Assembly: GCF_014203395.1 (NCBI RefSeq)
Contig: NZ_JACHIW010000002.1
Span: forward strand, 124,001-188,000
Source of the DNA: Saccharopolyspora phatthalungensis
Lineage (GTDB): Bacteria; Actinomycetota; Actinomycetes; Mycobacteriales; Pseudonocardiaceae
Direction of reading: 5' to 3'
Length of the DNA: 64,000 nucleotides
The notes under the pieces were generated by a model. That model ran no database searches, was not told where the DNA came from, and saw only the letters and a list, made by a program, of their open reading frames with translations. The position numbers and the translations under genes are program-made. Positions 11,808-23,448 of this stretch are shown here, piece after piece; positions within the stretch are counted from its first letter, which is position 1; every line of letters starts with the position of its first letter.

Positions 11808-13390
11808 GTCGTCTCCGCCCGTTCGGCCGCAAGCCGGTCCCTGATGGCTCGCTTGGCGATCTTGCCATACCCGGACTTGGGCAGTTCCTCCCAGAAGAGC
11901 AGCTGTTTCGGCAGCTTGTAGCGGGACAACTTCGGCGCCAGCCAGTCGCGCAGCGCCGTCGCGGTCAGCTCACCGCCCGGTCGCGGCACGACCACCGCGA
12001 TCCCGACCTCGCCCCAGTCCGGATCCGGCACGCCGATCACCGCTGCCTCGGTGATGTCGGGGTGCGCGAGGATCTTCTCCTCGATCTCGCGCGGATGGAT
12101 GTTGGAGCCGCCCGAGATGTACATCTCCGAGACGCGGCCGGTGATGTAGAGGAACCCTTCCGCGTCGAGAATGCCGAGGTCGCCGGTGCGGAACCAGCCA
12201 TCGCGGAACGATGCGGCGTTGGCCTCCGGATTGTTCAGATAGCCCTGGAACACCGCGGGTCCGCACACGCAGATCTCGCCCTGCTGCCCGGCCGGCAGTT
12301 CCCGGCCGGTGTCGTCCTGGATGCTGATCTGCATGCCAACCCGTGCCACACCGCAACTGCCGAAGTCCACGCCGTCGGGCAGTGGGCGGTCGTGCTGGTC
12401 CGGCGGCAGCACGGTGATGTTGCCGGTGACCTCACCAAGGCCGTAGTACTGCACCAGCACCGGGCCGAGTTCCTCCAGCGCGCGCAGCTGGTCCGAGCGG
12501 TACATCGGCGCCCCGGCGTAGATGACGTAGCGCAGGCTGCTGTGGTCGCGCAGCCGCACTTCCGGATGCTCGACCAGCCGCTTCAGGATCGTCGGGACGG
12601 TGAAAAGGTTGGAGACCCGCTCGGTTTCCACCAGCCGCCAGACCTCCGCCGGGTCGAAATGATCGGCGGCGGGCAACACGGTCTTGGCGGCACGCGCGAC
12701 CTGCGTGATGAAGTGGATCCCGGCCCCGTGCGACAGCGGTGCCACCGCTAGCGACGCGTCCCGGTGGTCGGTTCCGGGCATCAGGTCGCAGAGGTGGTTG
12801 GTGACCACGAAACCCATCTGATCGTGGCCGAGCACCGCGGCCTTCGGGCGGCCGCTGGTGCCGGAGGTGAAGAAGTACCAGCACGGGTCGTCCCGCCCGA
12901 CCAGCGCCGGCCGGACCGCTTCGGCACGACGCCGCGCGACCGCAGCGGCGACCGAATCGTCGCCGTCGCCGGCGAGGCGCAGCCGGAGCCGCAGCCCCGG
13001 CACCGCCTCGGCGACAGCCTGCGCGTGCTCCGGGTAGTCGGCGTGCCCGATCCAGGCGACCGGCCGAGACACCTCGGCGAGGCCGACGACCTCGGTCGGC
13101 GTCAGCCGGAAGTTTGTCGGCACTAACACCGCACCGGCGAACCAGCACGCGAACATGGCCTGGATCAGCTCGACATGGTTGGGGGAGTGGACCAGCACCG
13201 CGTCCCCGGACCCCACACCCGCCGCGCGGAGTTCGGCGGCCAGGGCACCGACGTCGGCGTGCAGCTCGCGCCAGGTCCACCGCCGGTCACCACTGACCAC
13301 TGCGTCGCGGTCGCCGTGCCGTCGCGCGGCTTGGACCAGCAGTTCGCCCAGGTTCATCGCGCGCCGCGCGATCGGCAGTCGCTCGCTCAC
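11804..13390 (-). CDS. AMP-dependent acyl-CoA synthetase
   Basis: 528 residues. Adenylation motif A5-like YFFTSGTSGRPKAAVLG (about 175-190), QYYGLGEVTG, DGWFRTGDLGILDAEG, GRVSEMYISGGSNIHPREIE, and the C-terminal catalytic Lys in PKSGYGKIAKRAI. It activates a carboxylic acid to the acyl-AMP and then the CoA thioester. GTG 13390 overlaps the thiolase stop (GTGA); a later ATG at 13354 is possible. With the monooxygenase 15638-16831 across the divergent promoter, an aromatic acid is a reasonable substrate, but this is inference. Confidence 0.92.
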   Translation of the reverse strand: MSERLPIARRAMNLGELLVQAARRHGDRDAVVSGDRRWTWRELHADVGALAAELRAAGVGSGDAVLVHSPNHVELIQAMFACWFAGAVLVPTNFRLTPTEVVGLAEVSRPVAWIGHADYPEHAQAVAEAVPGLRLRLRLAGDGDDSVAAAVARRRAEAVRPALVGRDDPCWYFFTSGTSGRPKAAVLGHDQMGFVVTNHLCDLMPGTDHRDASLAVAPLSHGAGIHFITQVARAAKTVLPAADHFDPAEVWRLVETERVSNLFTVPTILKRLVEHPEVRLRDHSSLRYVIYAGAPMYRSDQLRALEELGPVLVQYYGLGEVTGNITVLPPDQHDRPLPDGVDFGSCGVARVGMQISIQDDTGRELPAGQQGEICVCGPAVFQGYLNNPEANAASFRDGWFRTGDLGILDAEGFLYITGRVSEMYISGGSNIHPREIEEKILAHPDITEAAVIGVPDPDWGEVGIAVVVPRPGGELTATALRDWLAPKLSRYKLPKQLLFWEELPKSGYGKIAKRAIRDRLAAERAETT

Positions 13391-14565
13391 CGGACACGCT
13401 CCAGGACCGACGCGTAGTTGGCGACCGCCGCGCCGCCCATATTGAACACCGCCGCAAGGTCTGCCCGGGGCAGTTGCAGGTCCGCTGCCTGACCGGTCAG
13501 CTGCATCGCGGCCAGCACGTGCATCGACACGCCGGTGGCGCCGACCGGATGGCCCTTGGCCTTCAGCCCGCCGGAAACGTTGATCGGGAGCTTGCCGTCC
13601 CGCTCGGCCAGGCCCTCGTCCACCACACGTCGCCCCTTGCCGCGCTCGGCGAGCCCGAACGCCTCGTACTGCAGGAGTTCTGCGATGGTGAAGCAGTCGT
13701 GGGTCTCGATCAGATCCAGATCGTCGAGGGTGATCCCGGCTTCGGCGAGAGCCGCGCCGAAGGCGTCCCGCGCGCCCGCGAACTCCAGCGGGTCGCGGCG
13801 GCTCAGCGGCAGCGCGTCGTTGGCGTGGGCACGACCGCGGAACCCGACCGCGCGGGGCGCGCGAGCGGCGATATCCGGGCTCGCCACCACCACAGCGGCG
13901 GCGCCGTCGGAGACCAGCGAGCAGTCGGTGCGACGCAGCGGATCGGCCACGAGCGGGTTGCGGTCCGAGACCGTGTTGCAGAACTCGAAGCCGAGGTCCT
14001 TCCGGATCTGCGCCCACGGGTTGGCCACGCCGTTGCGGTGGTTTTTCGCCGCGATGCGGGCCAGCACGTCGCGGTGGTCGCCATGACGTTCGAAGTAGGC
14101 GGCGGCGATGGTGCCGAACACCGCGGCGAAGCTGCCGTAGTCGGCTTCCTCCTTGCGGTAGCTGGCCGACAGCAGGATGTCACCAACCTCGTCACCCGGC
14201 ACCCCGGTCATCTTCTCCGCGCCGATCACCAGTGCCGTCCGGCCGCGGCCGGCGGCGACGAAGTCCAGCGCCGCATACAGCGCCGCCGAGCCGGTGGCGC
14301 AGGCGTTCTCCAGGCGGGTCGCCGGGATCCGGCTCAACCGCTCCTGGCCCACGCCCACCAACGCCGCCTGGAAGTCCTGGCGGGAGAAGCCGTTGTTGTA
14401 GACGCCGACGAAGATGCCGTCCAGATCCTCGACCGGGAGTTCGGCATGCGCCAGCGCGTCCGCCGACACGGCGGCCAGCAGGGCTTCGGTGTCCGGTTCG
14501 GCCCGCTTGCCGAACCCGGTGTGCGACCAGCCGATGATCCGCGGTGTTTTGACCGCTCTGGTCAC
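13387..14565 (-). CDS. Thiolase / SCP-x-type acetyl-CoA acetyltransferase
   Basis: 392 residues. The nucleophilic Cys is in RLENACATGSAALYAALD (near residue 90), the His motif is in NVSGGLKAKGHPVGATG, and the N-terminal IIGWSHTGFGKR is typical of the SCP-x/thiolase-like subgroup. It cleaves a 3-ketoacyl-CoA with CoA. GTG 14565 has a strong GAGGAGG upstream. It starts only two bases after the stop of the IclR gene, so regulator and enzyme share a transcript. Confidence 0.9.
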   Translation of the reverse strand: MTRAVKTPRIIGWSHTGFGKRAEPDTEALLAAVSADALAHAELPVEDLDGIFVGVYNNGFSRQDFQAALVGVGQERLSRIPATRLENACATGSAALYAALDFVAAGRGRTALVIGAEKMTGVPGDEVGDILLSASYRKEEADYGSFAAVFGTIAAAYFERHGDHRDVLARIAAKNHRNGVANPWAQIRKDLGFEFCNTVSDRNPLVADPLRRTDCSLVSDGAAAVVVASPDIAARAPRAVGFRGRAHANDALPLSRRDPLEFAGARDAFGAALAEAGITLDDLDLIETHDCFTIAELLQYEAFGLAERGKGRRVVDEGLAERDGKLPINVSGGLKAKGHPVGATGVSMHVLAAMQLTGQAADLQLPRADLAAVFNMGGAAVANYASVLERVR

Positions 14566-14567
14566 CT

Positions 14568-15428
14568 TTACCTCCTCGGAGTCGGTTCACCCGTGGCTGC
14601 TTCCAGCAGCCGGCACTGCACGACGTGCGCCTCGCGGAGCAGCAGTTCGGCGAGCTCGCGCTGGCGCTCCAGATTCAGGCGCTGCTCGATGGTGGCGATG
14701 CTCAGCGCGGCCCGGACGACCCCGTCGGCGTCGTGCACCGGCACACCGACCGCCCAGGAGCCGGGGAAAATCCGGCCGTCGTTGAGGGCGTAGCCGCGCT
14801 GCCGGGTCCGGGCGATGAGCCGGCGCAGCACGGGTTCGGACAGCAGCCGGTAGGCGCGCCCGAGGACCTCGGAATTGCGCCCGATCACCGCGTCGACCTC
14901 GGCATCGTCCAACGCCGCCAGGATCGCCAAGCTGCCCGCGCCCGCGCCCAGGGGATGGAAGTCGCCCGGTTGCAGCGCGTAGTTGCGGATGGGGGCCGAG
15001 GCGTCCTCGCGGTGCAGGCAAACCGAGTAGTCGTCGCGGCGCACGGTGAGAAAGGCGGCGTCGCTGGAGAGCCTGGCCAGCTTCGCCAGCGACGGCAGCG
15101 ACAACCGGTGGATCCCGAACCGCCCGGCGGCCAGCACCCCGAGCACGTGCGACTCCGGCCCGAGGTGGTAGCGCTGGGTGCGCGGATTCTGCTCGACGAA
15201 ACCGTTGTGCGACAGGGCGGTCAGCAGCCGATGCACGGTCGGCTTGCGCAGCCCGCTCGCCGAGACCAGCTCGCCAAGCCCGACACCGCGATCGGTGCCG
15301 CCGCCCTCGCTGCCGAGCAGCCGCAGCAGTAGCAGCGCCCGATGCGCGCTCTGGGTGCCCGGCAACGGATCGCCGGGCGCGGTGTTGATCCGCGATACGG
15401 ACTCGGAGGTCGCCGCCGCGCTTCGCAT
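14568..15428 (-). CDS. IclR-family transcriptional regulator
   Basis: 286 residues from ATG 15428. The N-terminal winged helix-turn-helix (about residues 30-95) includes LGELVSASGLRKPTVHRLLT and FVEQNPRTQRYHLG. The C-terminal ligand domain has YALQPGDFHPLGAGAGSLAI and the closing region DGRIFPGSWAVGVPV. IclR proteins bind catabolic intermediates and control the neighbouring pathway. This one is the first gene of the operon it presumably regulates and is divergent from the monooxygenase, with an inverted repeat between them (15455-15483). Confidence 0.92.
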   Translation of the reverse strand: MRSAAATSESVSRINTAPGDPLPGTQSAHRALLLLRLLGSEGGGTDRGVGLGELVSASGLRKPTVHRLLTALSHNGFVEQNPRTQRYHLGPESHVLGVLAAGRFGIHRLSLPSLAKLARLSSDAAFLTVRRDDYSVCLHREDASAPIRNYALQPGDFHPLGAGAGSLAILAALDDAEVDAVIGRNSEVLGRAYRLLSEPVLRRLIARTRQRGYALNDGRIFPGSWAVGVPVHDADGVVRAALSIATIEQRLNLERQRELAELLLREAHVVQCRLLEAATGEPTPRR

Positions 15429-15454
15429 GATCACCAGCTCCCTTGCTGTCGGCC

Positions 15455-15483
15455 GTTCCGGGCTCGCCGCCGTGGTCCGGAAC
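15455..15483. promoter_or_regulatory. Inverted repeat, candidate IclR operator
   Basis: GTTCCGG at 15455-15461 and CCGGAAC at 15477-15483 form perfect 7-bp arms, 22 bases centre to centre, in the divergent region between the IclR gene and the FAD monooxygenase. The position suits control of both directions. Confidence 0.4.
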
Positions 15484-15637
15484 ACGCGGAGCATGCCACC
15501 CGCGGGTCCGACATGTGGACCGCCGTGCGGGTGCGACCAGTCGCGCAGACGTGTACAACGAGGGCGTCACGCGGACAACGGCGTGCCACCCGGTGCGTCT
15601 GCGCAGCTGCCCGCCTGTTCCCTCAGGAGGTCGTGCT

Positions 15638-16831
15638 GTGAAGATCGTGTGCATCGGAGCCGGTCCGGCCGGGCTGTACCTCGCCATCTCGGCGAAACTG
15701 CGAGACGCCGGACACGACGTGACAGTCATCGAACGGGATCCGCCGGGCGCCACCTACGGTTGGGGCGTCGGCTACGGGGAAAATCTGCTCGACACGCTGT
15801 ACCGCAACGACAAGGAGAGTGCGGAGCGGATCCGCGCCGAGTCGACGCTGTGGCAGGAGCAGGTCATCGCGATGCGCGGCGACGAGAAGGCGTATCTCGG
15901 GGGATACGGCTTCAGCATCAACCGCGCGCCGATGCTGGAGATTCTCGCTGAGCGGGCCACGGGCATGGGTGTGAAGCTCGACTACGAGCGTGCCGTGGAG
16001 GATCTGTCGGAACTCTCCGACGCCGATCTGGTCGTGGTCGCCGACGGCGCCAACAGCCGGATTCGGCAGCGCTACAGCGACGAGTTCGGCACCAGCGTGG
16101 ATCACGGCCGTAACCCCTACATCTGGTTGGGCACCGACAAGGTGTTCGACATGTTCACCTACGATTTCGAAGAGACCCCGGAGGGCTGGATCTGGTTCCA
16201 CGCCTATCCGTCCAGCACCGAAGTCAGCACCTTCGTCGTCGAATGCCAGGAGCCGACCTGGCGGGGCCTGGGCCTGGACCGGCTGGACGCCGGCCAGAGC
16301 ATGCGGCTGCTGGAGCGGATCTTCGCCCGCCCGCTGGAGGGCGGTTCGCTGATCAGCCAGTCCCGCGGCAAACCCGCGTCGTGGCAGCGCTTCACCCAGG
16401 TCTTCAACCAGACTTGGCGGCACGGCAACGCGATCCTGATCGGCGACGCCGCGCACACCACGCACTTCACCATCGGTTCCGGGACCCGGCTGGCGATGCT
16501 GGATGCGATCGTGCTCGCGGACAAGCTGTTCGATCACGACAACCTGGCCACGGCGTTGAAGGAGTTCGACGAGGAGGGCCACACCAACCTGCGCCGGCTG
16601 CAAGCCACCGCGCGCAGCAGCATGGCGTGGTACGAACACATCGACCGGTACATCGACCGCAACGTCGTGGACTTCTGTTACGCGATGGCCTGCCGCCACG
16701 GAGGGCAGCCTCCGTGGCGGTATCTGCGGCACGTCGCGAATCAGAATTTCCTGGTGCGCAAAGGAAGACGGCTGGCGGCCGCTGGCGGCCGCCGGTTCCA
16801 GGCGCACCGGCGCGGCGAAGCCTGGCGCTAG
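15638..16831 (+). CDS. FAD-dependent monooxygenase, aryl-CoA hydroxylase type
   Basis: 397 residues from GTG 15638 with AGGAGG seven bases upstream. The FAD-binding GXGXXG is in VCIGAGPAGLYLAI, the second motif is LVVVADGANSRIR, and the GD motif is in ILIGDAAHTTHFTIGSG. The early stretch GATYGWGVGYGENLLD resembles the start of the monooxygenase part of anthraniloyl-CoA monooxygenase and salicylyl-CoA 5-hydroxylase (GWGVVFSD). It probably hydroxylates an aromatic CoA ester made by the synthetase at 11804-13390. Its 3' end overlaps that of the ABC transporter. Confidence 0.85.
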   Translation: MKIVCIGAGPAGLYLAISAKLRDAGHDVTVIERDPPGATYGWGVGYGENLLDTLYRNDKESAERIRAESTLWQEQVIAMRGDEKAYLGGYGFSINRAPMLEILAERATGMGVKLDYERAVEDLSELSDADLVVVADGANSRIRQRYSDEFGTSVDHGRNPYIWLGTDKVFDMFTYDFEETPEGWIWFHAYPSSTEVSTFVVECQEPTWRGLGLDRLDAGQSMRLLERIFARPLEGGSLISQSRGKPASWQRFTQVFNQTWRHGNAILIGDAAHTTHFTIGSGTRLAMLDAIVLADKLFDHDNLATALKEFDEEGHTNLRRLQATARSSMAWYEHIDRYIDRNVVDFCYAMACRHGGQPPWRYLRHVANQNFLVRKGRRLAAAGGRRFQAHRRGEAWR

Positions 16832-18705
16832 TTGGGCAGCTGCCCGTCCGGCTGGGCCGGTGCACCCGGCCCGGCCGGACGCTCTGGGTGGTGCAGCCGG
16901 TAGAGGTGGGCGTACCCGCTGTTGTTGGTCAGCAGCTCGTGGTGGGTACCGGCCTCGGTGATCGAACCGCGGTCCAGGTAGATGATCTGTTGCGCGTCCT
17001 GGACCGTGAGCAGGTTGTGCGAGATGACGACGGTGGTGCGGCCGGCCATCAGGCGCCGTAGCGGGCTGAGGATCCGTTCCGCGGCGTCGGCGTCCAGGCT
17101 GGTGGTCGGTTCGTCCAGCAGCAGGATCGGAGCGTCCCGGATCATCGCGCGGGCGATCGCGATGCGCTGCCGCTGCCCGCCCGAAAGCAGGCGGCCGCGC
17201 TGCCCGACCCGGGTTTCGTAGCCCTCAGGCAGCCGCTGGATGAATTCGTGTGCGTCGGCGGCCTCGGCCGCTTCGACGAGTTGGTTGCGGGTGGCATCCG
17301 CTCGTCCGGCCAGGATGTTGTCCGCGATGGTGCCGTCCAGCAGCAGGGTTTCCTGTAGCACGATCGCGATGTTGGCACGTAACGCGGTCATGTCCAGGGC
17401 CCGCAGGTCGATGCCGTCGAGCAGGACCCGGCCATGGCTCGGGTCGTAGAAGCGCAACAGCAGCTTGGTCAGGGTTGACTTGCCCGCGCCGCTGGCCCCG
17501 ACCACGGCGGTGGTCTGGCCGGGCAAGGCGCAGAAGCTCACCCCGTGCAGCACATCGGTGACGGTCCCGGGGTAGCGGAAGCTGACGCGGTCGACCTCCA
17601 GGCGACCGGTGGCCCGCCGCGGCAGCGGGATCGGATGCGCCGGGCTCTGCACCAGCGGGCGCTGGTCCAGCAGCTCGATGATGCGCTCGGCGCTGGCGGC
17701 GGCCGAGAAGACGGTGTTGGACAGCTGGCCGAGGCTGCGCACCGGGGTATAGAGCTGGGACAGGTACACCAGGAACACCAGCAACCCGCCGAGGCTGATC
17801 CGGTCGGCGGACAGCTCGAAGATGCCCACGCCGAGGATGACCATCACGCCGAACACTTCCAGCAGGTCCACGAGCGGCGAGAACAGGGCGCCGACCCGCG
17901 CGGCGGACAGCTCGGCGGCGACGTTGCCGCGGCTCTGCTTGGCGAATCGCTCGACCTCGGCGCTCTCCCGCCCGTAGGCCTGGATCAGCGGCGCGTTGCC
18001 GAGGCTTTCCTCGGCGACGGTGCTGATGGAGCCGCTGCGGCCGCGGACCTCGCGGGAGGCCAGTTTGATCCGCTGCGCGAAGAACCGGGCGATCAGCCAG
18101 AACATCGGCACCGCGACCAGGGACACCAAGGCCAGCAACCAGTCGAGGTAGAACAGCACGCCGGTGAACAGCAGGACCTTCACCAACGAGGAGAAGGTTT
18201 GGGCGACCCCGGACAGCACGAGGCTCTCGATGGCACCCACGTCCCCGGTCAGCCGGGAGAGCGTGTCGCCGATGCGCCGGCGGTCGAAGAACCCGATCGA
18301 CAGGGTGTGCAGGTGGGCGAACACCTTCGTGCGCAACACGTTGAGGAAGTTCTCGCCGATCCACACCGTCAGGTACTGCCCGGAGAAATCGATTGCTCCA
18401 GAAACAAGGGTTATCGCCGCGTACGCCGCCGCCACAGCCGGGAACGCAGCGAAGTTGCGGGGCGTGAGCACATCGTCAATGAGCACCTTGAACAGCCAGA
18501 TCGCGGCGGTGTCCAACATCGGCGCGATTAGCACCAGCAGCAAGCTGAGCAGCAGCCAGCCGCGGAAGGGCCGGGCATCCGGCCAGAAGCGTCGGAAAAC
18601 CGCGCGCACTCGCATCGTCGGCGCATGCTCGACCAGCCCTTCGGTGTCCCCTTCGGCCGGTCGGAACAGCCAATTCACCAAGCCAGGCAAATTCTCACCC
18701 CGCAA
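16828..18705 (-). CDS. ABC exporter, fused membrane and ATPase domains
   Basis: 625 residues as called from TTG 18705; later starts (18690, 18678, 18615) are possible. Six transmembrane segments lie between about residues 45 and 330. Walker A GASGAGKST, signature LSGGQRQRIAIARA, Walker B ILLLDEPTTSLD and the switch His in VISHNL complete a type IV (MsbA/LmrA-like) half transporter that should work as a homodimer at the membrane. There is no C39 peptidase domain. Immediately upstream on the same strand lies the Gly/Trp-rich peptide gene (18776-18943) with a hairpin between, so the cargo may be that peptide. This is inference; multidrug or lipid export is the alternative. Confidence 0.93.
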   Translation of the reverse strand: MRGENLPGLVNWLFRPAEGDTEGLVEHAPTMRVRAVFRRFWPDARPFRGWLLLSLLLVLIAPMLDTAAIWLFKVLIDDVLTPRNFAAFPAVAAAYAAITLVSGAIDFSGQYLTVWIGENFLNVLRTKVFAHLHTLSIGFFDRRRIGDTLSRLTGDVGAIESLVLSGVAQTFSSLVKVLLFTGVLFYLDWLLALVSLVAVPMFWLIARFFAQRIKLASREVRGRSGSISTVAEESLGNAPLIQAYGRESAEVERFAKQSRGNVAAELSAARVGALFSPLVDLLEVFGVMVILGVGIFELSADRISLGGLLVFLVYLSQLYTPVRSLGQLSNTVFSAAASAERIIELLDQRPLVQSPAHPIPLPRRATGRLEVDRVSFRYPGTVTDVLHGVSFCALPGQTTAVVGASGAGKSTLTKLLLRFYDPSHGRVLLDGIDLRALDMTALRANIAIVLQETLLLDGTIADNILAGRADATRNQLVEAAEAADAHEFIQRLPEGYETRVGQRGRLLSGGQRQRIAIARAMIRDAPILLLDEPTTSLDADAAERILSPLRRLMAGRTTVVISHNLLTVQDAQQIIYLDRGSITEAGTHHELLTNNSGYAHLYRLHHPERPAGPGAPAQPDGQLPN

Positions 18706-18712
18706 GAAACGG

Positions 18713-18747
18713 GCGTAGCTCCCACTCCGCGGGAGTGGGAGCTACGC
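18713..18747 (-). terminator. Strong hairpin between Gly/Trp peptide gene and ABC exporter
   Basis: Perfect 16-bp stem, 18713-18728 pairing with 18732-18747 (arm CGTAGCTCCCACTCC), with a three-base loop. It lies in the 70-base gap between the peptide stop and the exporter start. A terminator or attenuator that yields much peptide mRNA and little exporter mRNA would fit, as in many RiPP and bacteriocin operons. Confidence 0.7.
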
Positions 18748-18775
18748 GACTAAATGGTTCGGTTGGCGTTAGGAC

Positions 18776-18943
18776 TCACCAGCAGCCCCAACCGCCCCAA
18801 CCGCCCCAGCCCCAGCCGTTGCCGCAGCCCCAGCCGCCCCAGCCCCAGCCGTTGCCCCAGCCCCAGCCCCAGCCGTTGCCCCAGCCCCAGCCGGTGCGAC
18901 CGAAATTGCGGCCATTGAAGTTGAATGTGTCCTTGATCTGCAT
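18776..18943 (-). CDS. Gly/Trp-rich 55-aa peptide, candidate secreted RiPP or bacteriocin precursor
   Basis: The ATG at 18943 opens a 55-codon frame ending with TGA at 18776-18778. Residues 1-17 (MQIKDTFNFNGRNFGRT) look like a leader. Residues 18-55 are built almost only of Gly and Trp in alternation (GWGWGNGWGWGWGNGWGWG and so on), with Asn at 23, 31 and 42, Cys at 40 and 54, and Trp last. In total there are 13 Trp, 22 Gly and two Cys. A purine-rich AAAGAG lies about nine bases before the ATG. The next gene on the strand is an ABC exporter. The frame is too short for many gene finders. I know no described family with this pattern; a structural or metal/heme-binding peptide is another possibility. 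Confidence 0.65.
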   Translation of the reverse strand: MQIKDTFNFNGRNFGRTGWGWGNGWGWGWGNGWGWGGWGCGNGWGWGGWGGWGCW

Positions 18944-19561: not shown

Positions 19562-19747
19562 TCAGCTGCTCGCGAACAGGTGCTGGAAGAACGTCGTCAG
19601 TGAGGTGACCACGGTGGTGAGCGCCGCGATCAGCAGGTCCCAGCCGGACCGCACCGCGCTCGCCGCACCGACGGGATCGCGGACCAGCAGTGAGCCGCAG
19701 ACGACGACCAGGAGCGCCACGATCGCGATCACGGTCTTGCGGTTCAT
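19562..19747 (-). CDS. Small single-pass membrane protein, 61 aa
   Basis: ATG 19747 is preceded by GGAGG with eight bases of spacing. Residues 5-22 (TVIAIVALLVVVCGSLLV) form one transmembrane helix, and the C-terminal half is a second moderately hydrophobic helix, LLIAALTTVVTSLTTFF. It is not recognised. It stands alone, divergent from the enoyl-CoA hydratase side, with no partner gene. Confidence 0.7.
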   Translation of the reverse strand: MNRKTVIAIVALLVVVCGSLLVRDPVGAASAVRSGWDLLIAALTTVVTSLTTFFQHLFASS

Positions 19748-20129
19748 GAGATCAGCCTCCGTCGTCCGGCCACCCTCGGTGCCGACGAGACCCTACCTGG
19801 CTCTCGTGCGCCACCCTTGGACCTGTGTGCCGGAAAGCCGATCATGTCGGACCGATTACGATCGGCTGCCGCGCTGGTACCGGGGCAGGTGCCTGGTCGG
19901 AGGCAGGATGATCGGGAAACTGGTGTCCGGCGCCAACTCCACCCACTTGGTGGGGCGCGCCGGTGCCGCCGAATGCTCGGGCTCCCGCAGGGCCCCGCTC
20001 TTGCCGCCCCGTGTGCCAGGGCAGAGCTCAGTGGTCGGCGGATGGTCCCGCTGCCCGGCGGGTGCCCCGGCGCCATGTTTTATGCCAGGCTCGGGGAAGC
20101 GGCGACGAACTCGAGTCCCTGGAGCTTCG
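19748..20129. other. Intergenic region, no supported gene
   Basis: 382 bases between the small membrane protein and the enoyl-CoA hydratase. A plus-strand frame runs through it in phase with the hydratase, but its composition is not protein-like and its start (19434) has no support. It presumably holds the divergent promoters. Confidence 0.45.
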
Positions 20130-20909
20130 ATGACCAGCCAGCGATACCGGCACCTGCTGACCGAACAGGACGGTGCGACCGTCCGGATCACGATGAACCG
20201 CCCCAAGAGTCGCAACTCGCTGTCCGCGGAGCACCTCGGCGAGCTGCGGCAGGCCTTCGAGGCGGCCGCCGAGACGAAGGCGACCGGGATCGTGCTGGCC
20301 GGTGCGGGCCCGGTGTTCAGCTCCGGTCACGACTTCACCGACATGGCCGACCGAGACCTGGCCGGGATGCGCGAACTGCTGCGGCTGTGCGAGTCGCTGA
20401 TGCGCACGATCCACGCCGTTCCGCAGGTCGTGATCGCGCGGGTGCACGGGCTGGCGGTGGCGGCCGGGTGCCAGCTGGTGGCCACCTGCGACCTGGCGGT
20501 GGCCGCGGAGTCGGCGGGGTTCGCGCTACCGGGCGGCAAGGGGGGCTGGTTCTGCCACACCCCGGCGGTGCCGGTGGCCCGTTCGATAGGCCGCAAGCGC
20601 CTGCTGGAAATGGCGCTCACCGGAGATCCGATCGATGCCGCGACCGCCGAGCGGTGGGGCCTGGTCAACCAGGTGGTGCCCGACGCGGAGCTGGACGGCG
20701 CTGTCGAGGCGCTGCTGGCCCGCGCGACGTGCGGTAGCAGGCAGGCCAAGGCGGTGGGCAAGCAGACCATCTACGCCCAGCTCGACCGGCCGGAGGCCGA
20801 TGCCTACGCGATCGCGACCGAGGTGATGGCCGCGACGTCGCAAACCCCGGATGCGCGCGAACGCGTGCGGGCGTTCCTGGAAAAGCGGCCCCCGGCCTTC
20901 GGCGCCTGA
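20130..20909 (+). CDS. Enoyl-CoA hydratase/isomerase family protein
   Basis: 259 residues from ATG 20130 (GGAG nearby). Crotonase motifs: TMNRPKSRNSLSAEHLGELR, the oxyanion-hole segment FSSGHDFTDMADRDL and HGLAVAAGCQLVATCDLAVA. In the latter, the position of the first catalytic Glu of true hydratases is occupied by Gln/Leu (AAGCQLV), and AFALPGGKGGWF replaces the usual FxxPExxxGxxP. It may therefore be an atypical or non-hydratase crotonase. It is monocistronic, with no beta-oxidation partner adjacent. Confidence 0.85.
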   Translation: MTSQRYRHLLTEQDGATVRITMNRPKSRNSLSAEHLGELRQAFEAAAETKATGIVLAGAGPVFSSGHDFTDMADRDLAGMRELLRLCESLMRTIHAVPQVVIARVHGLAVAAGCQLVATCDLAVAAESAGFALPGGKGGWFCHTPAVPVARSIGRKRLLEMALTGDPIDAATAERWGLVNQVVPDAELDGAVEALLARATCGSRQAKAVGKQTIYAQLDRPEADAYAIATEVMAATSQTPDARERVRAFLEKRPPAFGA

Positions 20910-21000
20910 AGGTGATCAGGCAGTCCTAACCACCGAGATGTCGAGCTCGATGCTGACCTGCCGCAATCCGGCCGAAATCGCGGTCCACGGGACTGACTGG

Positions 21001-21040
21001 CGTGGCTTTCTGCTCTGGCCGCCGTGACTTTCTGCTCTGG
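21001..21040 (+). repeat. Imperfect tandem repeat, 2 x 18 bp
   Basis: CGTGGCTTTCTGCTCTGG (21001-21018) is repeated at 21023-21040 with a single change (GGC to GAC). It lies in the 300-base gap before the nitroreductase gene, which otherwise shows no gene. Function unknown. Confidence 0.6.
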
Positions 21041-21209
21041 ACCGATCAGCTAAGCGGTGCGAACTATTGTCTTGGTCCGTAGTGCGTTAGGTCGTGGTGC
21101 TGGTGTTCGGTTCGATCATCGAGAGACGGCCGCGGGGGTCGCGGCGCTGGCTCAATGACGGGTGGCTGCCGCGCTTACCGCGCCGCGTCAGGCGGCTGCT
21201 GGCGCTGGG

Positions 21210-22118
21210 ATGACGCGCGTCGCCCCGCCGTCTTACGACACCGTGTGTTCGGCGCTTTCCTTGGCGTGCCGGGCTCCCTCGGTGCACAACTGCCAGCCGT
21301 GGCGGTGGTTGCTGGCCGAGCGATCGTTGCAGTTGTTCCTGGACCGATCGCGGTTGCCCGAGGTGCTCGACCCGGCGGGACGTGCGCAGGTGATCAGTTG
21401 CGGTGCCGTGCTGCATCATGCGCGGATCGCGTTCGGCGCGCTCGGTTGGCGGACGATGGTGCACCGGCTGCCGAATGCGGCCCAGCCCGATCACCTGGCG
21501 TCGATCCAGTTCAGCCAGCATGATCGCCTTGCCCCGGCGATGGTGGCGCTGGCCGGGGCGGCGGGCCAGCGGCACGCCGCGCGGGGGCCGTACCGCGCGG
21601 AGCCCGTTCCGCCCGAGCTGCTGATGGGCCTGCGTGCCGCGGCCGAAACCGAACACGGCGCCCTGGTTCGGGCCGCCGAGCACCGCGGCGTCTTGGTGGA
21701 GTCCTTGCAGCGAGCCGGGTGGTTGCGGGAATCCGCCGCGTACCAGAAGGCGGTGGCCGATCTGGACGACCCCGAACCGGCGAGCCCGGTGCTGACCGAC
21801 GAAGCTGTGTTCGCGGTGCTGGCCACTCGCGGTGACTGGGTTGACAGCTGGCTGGCGGCGGGGGAGGCGCTCAGCGCCGTGCTGCTGGCGGCGGTGCGCG
21901 ACGGCCTGGCGACCTGCCCGCTGAACCAACTGGGAGAAGTCGCCGAGATACGCGAACGGGTCCAGGAAACGGTGCTCGGCGGCGCCGGGTATGCCCAGTT
22001 GGTGCTGCGCCTAGGCTGGCCGGGGCCGGAGGAGGCGCTGCCGACCACGTCACGCCGTCCGCTGGCCGAATCGCTGGAACTGCTTCCGCCGCGCAATGAG
22101 TACAACAGTCCACAATAG
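21210..22118 (+). CDS. Acg-type nitroreductase-family protein
   Basis: 302 residues from ATG 21210; an ATG 16 codons earlier is also in frame. The N-terminal RAPSVHNCQPWRWLLAER is the FMN-contact motif of the nitroreductase fold in the Acg/Rv2032 subgroup. CPLNQLGEVAEIRERV and AQLVLRLGWPGPEEALP are the C-terminal signature. Acg proteins are FMN-binding, often dormancy- or stress-induced, and are thought to sequester rather than turn over flavin. It is monocistronic, with no DosR-like box that I could recognise upstream. Confidence 0.85.
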   Translation: MTRVAPPSYDTVCSALSLACRAPSVHNCQPWRWLLAERSLQLFLDRSRLPEVLDPAGRAQVISCGAVLHHARIAFGALGWRTMVHRLPNAAQPDHLASIQFSQHDRLAPAMVALAGAAGQRHAARGPYRAEPVPPELLMGLRAAAETEHGALVRAAEHRGVLVESLQRAGWLRESAAYQKAVADLDDPEPASPVLTDEAVFAVLATRGDWVDSWLAAGEALSAVLLAAVRDGLATCPLNQLGEVAEIRERVQETVLGGAGYAQLVLRLGWPGPEEALPTTSRRPLAESLELLPPRNEYNSPQ

Positions 22119-22308
22119 ACATCTACGGTGGAGGTCCCCGGGTGTGTGCCGGGACTGCGCCGCCGCCGAGGTCGCCAGCAAGGTCAGCCGGGCGGCCGGA
22201 GGGATCCGGCACGAGGGCGCCATCGCATAGTGCGGATTCCCTTTTGTTGTCAGAGGTTTTCGTCAAGTCGATCAACGGTAGGGGCGGGCTGGGGGCGCCG
22301 ACGATCCG

Positions 22309-23448
22309 ATGATCGGAGTTGTTCGAGTGGTGACTCCGGATGGCCGCTGGGAGGCTTGGCGCGTGCAGGACAACGCGTATCGAGCAGGCAGACCGAATGA
22401 GAAGTCGGTGCGCCGCTGGCGACGTCGGCTGGCGGACGAGCATGAAGAAGCGAAGGTCTACCGGGAGCTGGCCGCCCGGCGCTCCGGTGAGGAACGGGAG
22501 ATCCTGCTCGGGCTCGCCGAGGCCGAGGAACGGCACGCCGCCTACTGGGAAGGACTGCTCGGCGACGAGGTCGGGCCGAAGCGGCGCGGCCACTTCCGGA
22601 TGCGGCTGCTCGTGTTCCTGGCCCGCCGGTTCGGTTCGGTGTTCGTGCTCGCTCTGGCGCAGCGCGCCGAAAGCCGCTCGCCGTACCGCTTCGACCGCGA
22701 CGCGCCGGCCGCGATGGCCGCCGACGAACGCATCCACGAGGAGGTCGTGCGGGCACTCGCCGCACGCGGGCGCGCCAGGGTGTCGGGAACATTCCGCGCG
22801 GCGGTATTCGGCGCCAACGACGGCCTGGTCAGCAACCTGGCGCTGGTGCTGGGCGTCATCGGCGGGAACGTGCCGACCTCGACCGTGCTGCTCACTGGGC
22901 TGGCGGGGCTGCTGGCCGGTGCATTGTCGATGGGGGCCGGCGAGTACATCTCGGTGCGTTCCCAGCGGGAACTGCTCGCCGCAGCGGCTCCGAATCCCGA
23001 AGCCCGCGCGGTGGTGCCCTATCTCGACGTCAACGCCAACGAACTCGGCCTGGTCTACCGGGCCAGGGGCATGTCCGCCGAGGAGGCCCAGCGCCGCGCC
23101 GATGCGCTGCTGCGCGACCCCAAGCCGCCGGTGCCACCGGCCGACCAACCCGCCGACGAGCACGAGATCGTCGGCACCGGTCTCAAAGCGGCGATCTCCA
23201 GTTTCGTCTTTTTCGCCTCCGGTGCGCTGGTCCCGGTGCTGCCGTTCGTCGCCGGGCTCAGTGGTGGCCTCGCCGTCCTGATCGCGGTCGTGCTGGTCGG
23301 GCTGGCGCTGATGCTGACCGGCGCCACCGTCGCCGTGCTGTCCGGCGCGCCGCCGCTGCCTCGCGCCTTGCGGCAACTCGCCATCGGGGCGGGCGCAGCG
23401 GCGGTGACCTACCTGCTCGGGTTGATCTTCGGCGCGACCGTTGGGTGA
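22309..23448 (+). CDS. Ferritin-like domain fused to VIT1/CCC1 iron/manganese transporter
   Basis: 379 residues from ATG 22309; the first 30 or so are uncertain. Residues about 40-155 are a ferritin-like four-helix segment with Glu/His pairs (EHEEAKVYRELA, EAEERHAAYWEGLLG, DERIHEEVVRALA). The VIT1 part begins FGANDGLVSNLALVLGVIGG, the family hallmark, with GAGEYISVRSQREL and three further membrane helices. The arrangement is that of erythrin-vacuolar iron transport (MbfA-like) proteins, inner-membrane exporters of Fe2+/Mn2+. It is monocistronic and converges on the GNAT gene across a terminator. Confidence 0.9.
   Translation: MIGVVRVVTPDGRWEAWRVQDNAYRAGRPNEKSVRRWRRRLADEHEEAKVYRELAARRSGEEREILLGLAEAEERHAAYWEGLLGDEVGPKRRGHFRMRLLVFLARRFGSVFVLALAQRAESRSPYRFDRDAPAAMAADERIHEEVVRALAARGRARVSGTFRAAVFGANDGLVSNLALVLGVIGGNVPTSTVLLTGLAGLLAGALSMGAGEYISVRSQRELLAAAAPNPEARAVVPYLDVNANELGLVYRARGMSAEEAQRRADALLRDPKPPVPPADQPADEHEIVGTGLKAAISSFVFFASGALVPVLPFVAGLSGGLAVLIAVVLVGLALMLTGATVAVLSGAPPLPRALRQLAIGAGAAAVTYLLGLIFGATVG

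Follow-up and report, generated by a model that had tools for sequence, protein, structure and literature searches.

A gene for a peptide of extreme glycine and tryptophan content (the GW peptide) lies on the minus strand of a 64,000-nucleotide stretch of the 8.54 Mb genome of Saccharopolyspora phatthalungensis (the window; positions 124,001 to 188,000 of contig NZ_JACHIW010000002.1). The gene is conserved in relatives, is followed by a conserved hairpin and is linked to an ATP-binding cassette (ABC) half-exporter and a flavin monooxygenase. Related exporters adjoin other peptides of one-sided composition, which suggests a family of secreted and probably modified peptides in bacteria that has no name yet. 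It is considered probable, though far from assured, that the product resembles the ribosomally synthesized and post-translationally modified peptides (RiPPs), with its tryptophans oxidized by the VioD-like monooxygenase and the ABC exporter providing the exit. The features of the locus are as follows.

18776–18943, minus strand: GW-rich peptide gene, 55 residues, stop codon included in the coordinates (from the translation and orthologues)
18893–18943, minus strand: N-terminal, leader-like segment MQIKDTFNFNGRNFGRT, the first 17 residues (from an alignment of 16 GW peptides)
18779–18892, minus strand: Gly/Trp core of 38 residues, almost only Gly and Trp (from the translation and composition)
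18713–18747, minus strand: terminator-like hairpin of 16 pairs with a 3-base loop, then a weak T run (from folding and alignment)
16828–18705, minus strand: ABC half-exporter, 625 residues, start at TTG 18705 or GTG 18678 (Pfam ABC_membrane and ABC_tran)
15638–16831, plus strand: flavin adenine dinucleotide (FAD) monooxygenase of the VioD/salicylyl-coenzyme A (CoA) 5-hydroxylase type, a candidate tryptophan-oxidizing enzyme

Conservation of the peptide gene and the hairpin

The translation, MQIKDTFNFNGRNFGRTGWGWGNGWGWGWGNGWGWGGWGCGNGWGWGGWGGWGCW, contains 13 Trp, 22 Gly and two Cys among its 55 residues and ends in Trp, bearing out the initial annotation, in which a Gly/Trp frame of this length and composition had been described on the minus strand upstream of an ABC exporter. 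The start is placed at ATG 18943 because an in-frame TGA stands just before it, with six bases between. Further frames are also open across the GGCTGG repeats of the region, so an open frame alone proves nothing; the coding evidence rests on the conserved leader, stop position, hairpin and linkage.

A search of 22 Saccharopolyspora genomes recovered a complete orthologous exporter in 13 (80–100% identity). These exporters were picked by exporter sequence alone; an intact GW frame is present upstream of all 13, with its stop 71–144 bp before the matched exporter, and the flavin monooxygenase is convergent behind. The supposition of a real peptide gene tied to the exporter is supported. In a fourteenth genome with the locus (G013), a GW peptide begins at the end of a contig. 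Seven Saccharopolyspora species supply the nearest named exporter relatives (82–87% identity), and all seven loci have a GW peptide and a hairpin directly upstream of the exporter; these loci overlap with the 13 from the genome search and the counts are not additive. The same set of peptide, exporter and flavin enzyme was found in two other genera (G033 and G023).

Met1 and Phe7 are invariant among 16 aligned GW peptides, the typical start being M-x-[IV]-[KSR]-x-x-F. Altogether 42 GW peptides span 29–69 residues with cores of variable length, and Ala, Leu, Pro, Glu and Tyr each account for less than 0.5% of their residues. Two strict leader-plus-GW patterns matched in five and six of 200 family genomes, all Saccharopolyspora, and the reversed control in none of the 200; these patterns miss the GW peptides of other genera, which were found by other routes.

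The window peptide (P0001) has no model match in Pfam, NCBIfam or PADLOC, and none was obtained for six related peptides in NCBIfam or for five others in Pfam. A protein database search with P0001 alone returned nothing at E ≤ 0.001, as did one with a His-rich Streptomyces peptide of the wider exporter family (see below). The low complexity of such peptides defeats similarity searching, which makes them hard to find. Searching with a profile built from 16 GW peptides retrieved 25 proteins at E ≤ 10, five of them at E ≤ 1e-4 (7981 candidates scored); every name given was 'hypothetical protein' and three came from Pseudonocardiaceae metagenome-assembled genomes. Three of the database relatives (P0009, P0010 and P0019) share a non-GW C-terminus, ..ISLHLDL or ..ISVHLDL. 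No such peptide family is described in the titles or abstract openings of the literature matches listed.

The hairpin separates the peptide gene from the exporter, the start codon of which lies 8 or 35 bases further on, depending on whether the TTG or the GTG is used. The strong hairpin claimed at this position in the initial annotation is real and is kept across relatives. An 81-base stretch containing it folds with −41.9 kcal/mol (z −6.9), and none of 200 shuffles was as stable. In an alignment of 18 hairpins, linked and stand-alone, chosen by hand (excluding L029, L054, L147, L150, L153, L171, L172 and later stand-alone ones), 96.5% of the cells pair and 11 of the 16 pairs have changed on both sides; the hairpin is conserved as a structure, by compensatory changes. 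None of 500 shuffles scored as high on four of five measures, while 42 did on the fifth, and the paired share drops to 36–50% in slid versions of the alignment. Other genera have a hairpin of different sequence at the equivalent position, and at L245 and L246 the hairpin sits between the peptide and the flavin gene, with no exporter seen. These properties fit an attenuating terminator. The hairpin pattern occurs at three places in the source genome, each behind a GW gene; since the reversed control pattern gave three matches on each strand, the count itself is not above chance and it is the location that matters.

Linked flavin monooxygenase and stand-alone GW genes

The initial annotation had found no obvious maturase next door. 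This has to be revised, as the conserved flavin monooxygenase at 15638–16831 (plus strand) is convergent with the exporter and overlaps its end by four bases. It is related to tryptophan/indole hydroxylases, its best sequence and fold relatives being VioD, a hydroxylase of the violacein pathway, and salicylyl-CoA 5-hydroxylase; VioD is the nearest solved relative at about 27% identity. GW-rich peptides adjoin 22 of 30 examined relatives of the enzyme, in six genera (the 30 loci being drawn from 46 matches, with four second Saccharopolyspora copies and 12 weaker matches left out). At three of the loci with a GW peptide (L245–L247) no exporter is present within the 6–6.5 kb read, and the enzyme therefore seems tied to the peptide itself. 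It was found at none of 23 loci in which exporters of the same family adjoin other peptides (L123–L142 and L074–L076; L141 ends at the exporter), nor at any of 11 loci of a second Saccharopolyspora exporter type (type 2) read with 1.5 kb flanks, one of which is the same locus as L123. A second copy of the monooxygenase in the source genome (G000:C2:627117-628304; L233, L248; 71% identity) has a stand-alone GW gene about 14 kb away and adjoins neither a GW peptide nor an exporter.

No C39 peptidase domain was matched on the exporter in Pfam, where matches other than ABC_membrane and ABC_tran are weaker and of ATPase/P-loop type only (up to E 1), and so the exporter bears no mark of the double-glycine type of bacteriocin exporter. 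In PADLOC the exporter and the flavin enzyme gave only ATPase- or oxidoreductase-type matches. No lanthionine synthetase was found among the exporter, the flavin enzyme and seven further scanned window genes (12002–15494 and 19562–23448), which comprise a CoA ligase, a thiolase, an IclR regulator, an enoyl-CoA hydratase, a nitroreductase, a VIT1 protein and one open reading frame (ORF) with no match. A promoter scan 5' of the peptide gene found none. Upstream of the peptide gene lies a 61-residue hydrophobic ORF (19562–19747, minus strand) with no Pfam match.

Three further GW genes occur in the source genome, far from the exporters found and each with a GTAGCT hairpin. Such stand-alone genes are present in 12 of 14 Saccharopolyspora genomes with the locus and in none of eight without it (Fisher p = 1.4e-4, or 0.001 with one genome left out; relatedness is uncorrected and the genomes are not independent). 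In ten of the 12 genomes the match to the stand-alone copy covers a short stretch or a locus, and how far it lies from the exporter rests on match positions; for the eight genomes without the locus the count rests on two patterns and on reading a small number of DNA matches in G009, G011, G016 and G017, the weak matches in G007 and G010 being unread. Most stand-alone genes have a similar hairpin, with none apparent in the 110 bases behind L180 and L188; the copy in G003, the twelfth genome, has no apparent hairpin. The stand-alone genes and their co-occurrence with the locus suggest that the GW peptide probably acts as a product and not only in cis. In L189 (G003) the start of the other peptide type is joined to a GW core. 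The core frame of the stand-alone copy L056 (G005:C1:1062008) turns Ala/Gly-rich, and the copy has probably shifted and decayed. GW-like frames in L197 and L202 (G009 and G016) were rejected as GW peptides, as the leader motif is absent and they look like another protein.

Proposed pathway and alternative explanations

In the proposed pathway, the short segment at the N-terminus of the translated peptide (usually M-x-I-x-x-x-F with a few Arg or Asn residues added) would mark it for both enzyme and exporter. The VioD-like monooxygenase would oxidize, most likely hydroxylate, the indole rings of the Gly-Trp core, and the half-exporter would carry the product out. The hairpin may end most transcripts behind the peptide gene, which would yield much peptide and little exporter, and the stand-alone genes could supply extra substrates in trans. 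For the role outside the cell, the best single guess is an antimicrobial peptide that acts on membranes, made because the exporter family repeatedly shows tails rich in Trp, His, Arg/Pro or Gly, the same one-sided compositions as in the Trp-, His-, Pro/Arg- and Gly-rich antimicrobial peptides of animals and plants. Unlike those, the present peptides are bacterial, stand beside an exporter and are known from genes alone. A coat or adhesive material, or a signal, are further candidates.

Several observations weigh against this pathway. The best NCBIfam match of the monooxygenase is NF006101 (salicylyl-CoA 5-hydroxylase/oxidoreductase; 377 bits against a cut-off of 1078, profile positions 1–360 of 768), and the VioD equivalog model NF053547 scored 191 bits against a cut-off of 620; as both scores are far below the cut-offs and the salicylyl-CoA model is ahead, a small-molecule substrate is possible. 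CoA ligase, thiolase and IclR regulator genes stand beside the enzyme in the window. Eight of the 30 enzyme loci (L226 and L228–L234), including second Saccharopolyspora copies, have neither GW peptide nor exporter, so that members of the enzyme family probably serve other purposes as well, and none of eight stand-alone GW loci (L050–L052 and L116–L120, 11–16 kb each) has the enzyme beside it. No leader protease or immunity gene was found among the nearby window genes scanned. As for coding itself, the comparison of related loci, named in the initial annotation as a possible refutation, showed the frame intact in 13 of 13 orthologues but no synonymous excess: summed over all pairs, 222 synonymous and 814 non-synonymous codon differences were counted, which gives no support for coding. 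This comparison is held to be uninformative, because there is a single codon for tryptophan and the alignment of the repeats is poor.

The closest NCBIfam model, the nearby CoA ligase and thiolase and the missing enzyme at the stand-alone loci would suit a peptide that is exported unmodified, with the monooxygenase acting on a small aromatic compound as part of a pathway that just happens to lie at the same locus. This is rather unlikely in view of the pairing of enzyme and GW peptide in loci read without an exporter (L245–L247), its recurrence in 22 of 30 enzyme loci across six genera and the absence of the enzyme from the 23 and 11 loci of same-family exporters with other peptides. The order found in the window, 13 Trp codons, a terminator-like hairpin and then the exporter 8 or 35 bases on, could also be that of a cis-acting attenuator, in which translation of a Trp-rich leader peptide would respond to charged tRNA-Trp and so determine how much transcription passes the hairpin into the exporter, as in the trpL-type leaders, where Trp codons are likewise followed by a terminator-like hairpin. 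The present peptides differ in having far more Trp, stand-alone copies and relatives of other composition. Leader and terminator precede a gene to be regulated in the window copy but not in the stand-alone genes, which have a like leader and mostly a hairpin with no exporter behind. In addition, the peptides upstream of homologous exporters differ greatly in composition and the flavin gene is on the opposite strand in Saccharopolyspora, making attenuation as the sole function a quite doubtful explanation.

An intracellular low-complexity peptide unrelated to transport, such as a scaffold or a metal or haem binder, is conceivable from general knowledge, since Gly/aromatic repeats can phase-separate and His- or Cys-containing cores could bind metals. 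It is improbable for a peptide found at all 13 exporters chosen by exporter sequence alone and with stand-alone copies that co-occur with the locus. The initial annotation had named a low-complexity accident in a single genome as its main alternative. The several open frames on the GGCTGG repeats, the lack of a synonymous excess and the seemingly frame-shifted copy L056 could be cited for an accident with no product, but leader, stop, hairpin and linkage are conserved across Saccharopolyspora and other genera, which excludes a single-genome event and leaves an accident of any kind hardly credible.

The pathway of oxidation and export agrees with RiPPs in general in its small precursor, short conserved N-terminal segment, variable core and linked enzyme and exporter (the enzyme by linkage alone, at 22 of 30 loci), and RiPPs include members with flavin-dependent tryptophan chemistry. 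It departs from them in that Gly and Trp make up nearly the whole core, the enzyme is an aromatic hydroxylase of the VioD type, no protease or known RiPP enzyme is present among the nearby genes scanned and relatives of the exporter go with peptides of other composition. The monooxygenase in turn differs from VioD and salicylyl-CoA 5-hydroxylase in being linked to a peptide gene. If correct, this proposal would add a class of secreted peptides, modified and so far without a name, in Saccharopolyspora, a genus used in antibiotic and insecticide production, and probably in several other actinobacterial groups. Whether tryptophan inside a peptide can be a substrate for a flavin enzyme of the VioD type could also be tested directly at this locus.

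Other peptides of the exporter family

More distantly related members of the exporter family, among them those of other actinobacteria, adjoin short peptides of other extreme composition, rich in Arg, His/Asp/Gly, Lys/Pro or Phe/Ser/Arg/Cys, and a protein kinase is often present as well; examples are MAIFSRLFPANHRDHGD... (His/Asp/Gly, Streptomyces), MSFRKLAPLPPKPKSKQLPPPPPPKPKK... and MARSSIFSALQPARMARRGDSSSDDDRRRRRRRRRR.... In the source genome, a 61% identical exporter is accompanied by the peptide MAVFTGLAPAWGGFSGFSGRCFSRRFCSRRFFRFNTGCFW. In a survey scoring the best three candidates per genome, a biased upstream ORF was found at 21 of 23 family exporters, compared with 13 of 164 neighbour genes and none of 17 distant ABC exporters; of the 21, that of L141 was read as spurious, the peptides of L130 and L138 (the latter behind the exporter) were missed, and three of the 13 control hits are the L138 peptides themselves. 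The combination of this exporter family with a small biased ORF offers a way to find more such peptides.

In a phylogenetic tree the 15 rows of GW exporters group in a single clade (support 100/100), which joins the type-2 clade (100/100) at 95/95. A protein kinase follows all 11 type-2 exporters listed for Saccharopolyspora (Pkinase, 108 bits for one), and ten of the 11 have a biased peptide. The share of Ser plus Thr in the peptide tails is 0.188 at 19 kinase loci and 0.031 at 12 loci with neither enzyme (p = 1.2e-5, or 1.8e-4 on a hand-thinned set), in a post hoc comparison of hand-picked peptides in which most kinase-free loci come from one clade. Two kinase loci have low shares (0.05 and 0.06). 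The count omits L163 (kinase, no peptide found), L141 (contig end, candidate on the other strand only) and L107, and treats L130 as kinase-free despite a distant kinase match on the opposite strand, about 3 kb away. Being post hoc, hand-picked and confounded by phylogeny, the link is a lead and not a result; if it holds, the relation of enzyme type to tail composition makes clear predictions.

These observations suggest, tentatively and as something less than likely, that one actinobacterial exporter family serves many secreted peptides, each consisting of a short recognition segment and an extreme tail, with the modifying enzyme swapped to suit the tail: a VioD-like hydroxylase for Trp tails, a protein kinase for Ser/Thr-bearing Arg/His tails and neither for Lys/Pro or Arg/Cys tails. 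Hydroxyindole- or phospho-peptides would result, which might make up a coat, adhesive, pigment or antimicrobial layer, and the hydroxylated, phosphorylated low-complexity cement proteins of animals provide a parallel. An exporter family in which tails and enzymes are swapped in this way has a real chance of being a separate kind.

The type-2 loci L100/L123 (G000:C1:327256-329070) and L155–L164 carry Phe/Ser/Arg/Cys- or His/Arg-rich peptides. Near the cassette in five loci of the Streptomyces clade (L074, L076, L124, L125 and L126) there are a sigma-70-type factor and a zinc-finger anti-sigma-like protein, and a weaker sigma/anti-sigma-like pair is found near L243. No peptide precedes the exporter of L138 (G285; the same locus as L111), where three Trp/Arg/His-rich peptides of 40–62 residues cluster around the kinase behind the exporter; one of these contains GWN-type repeats followed by runs of Arg and His.
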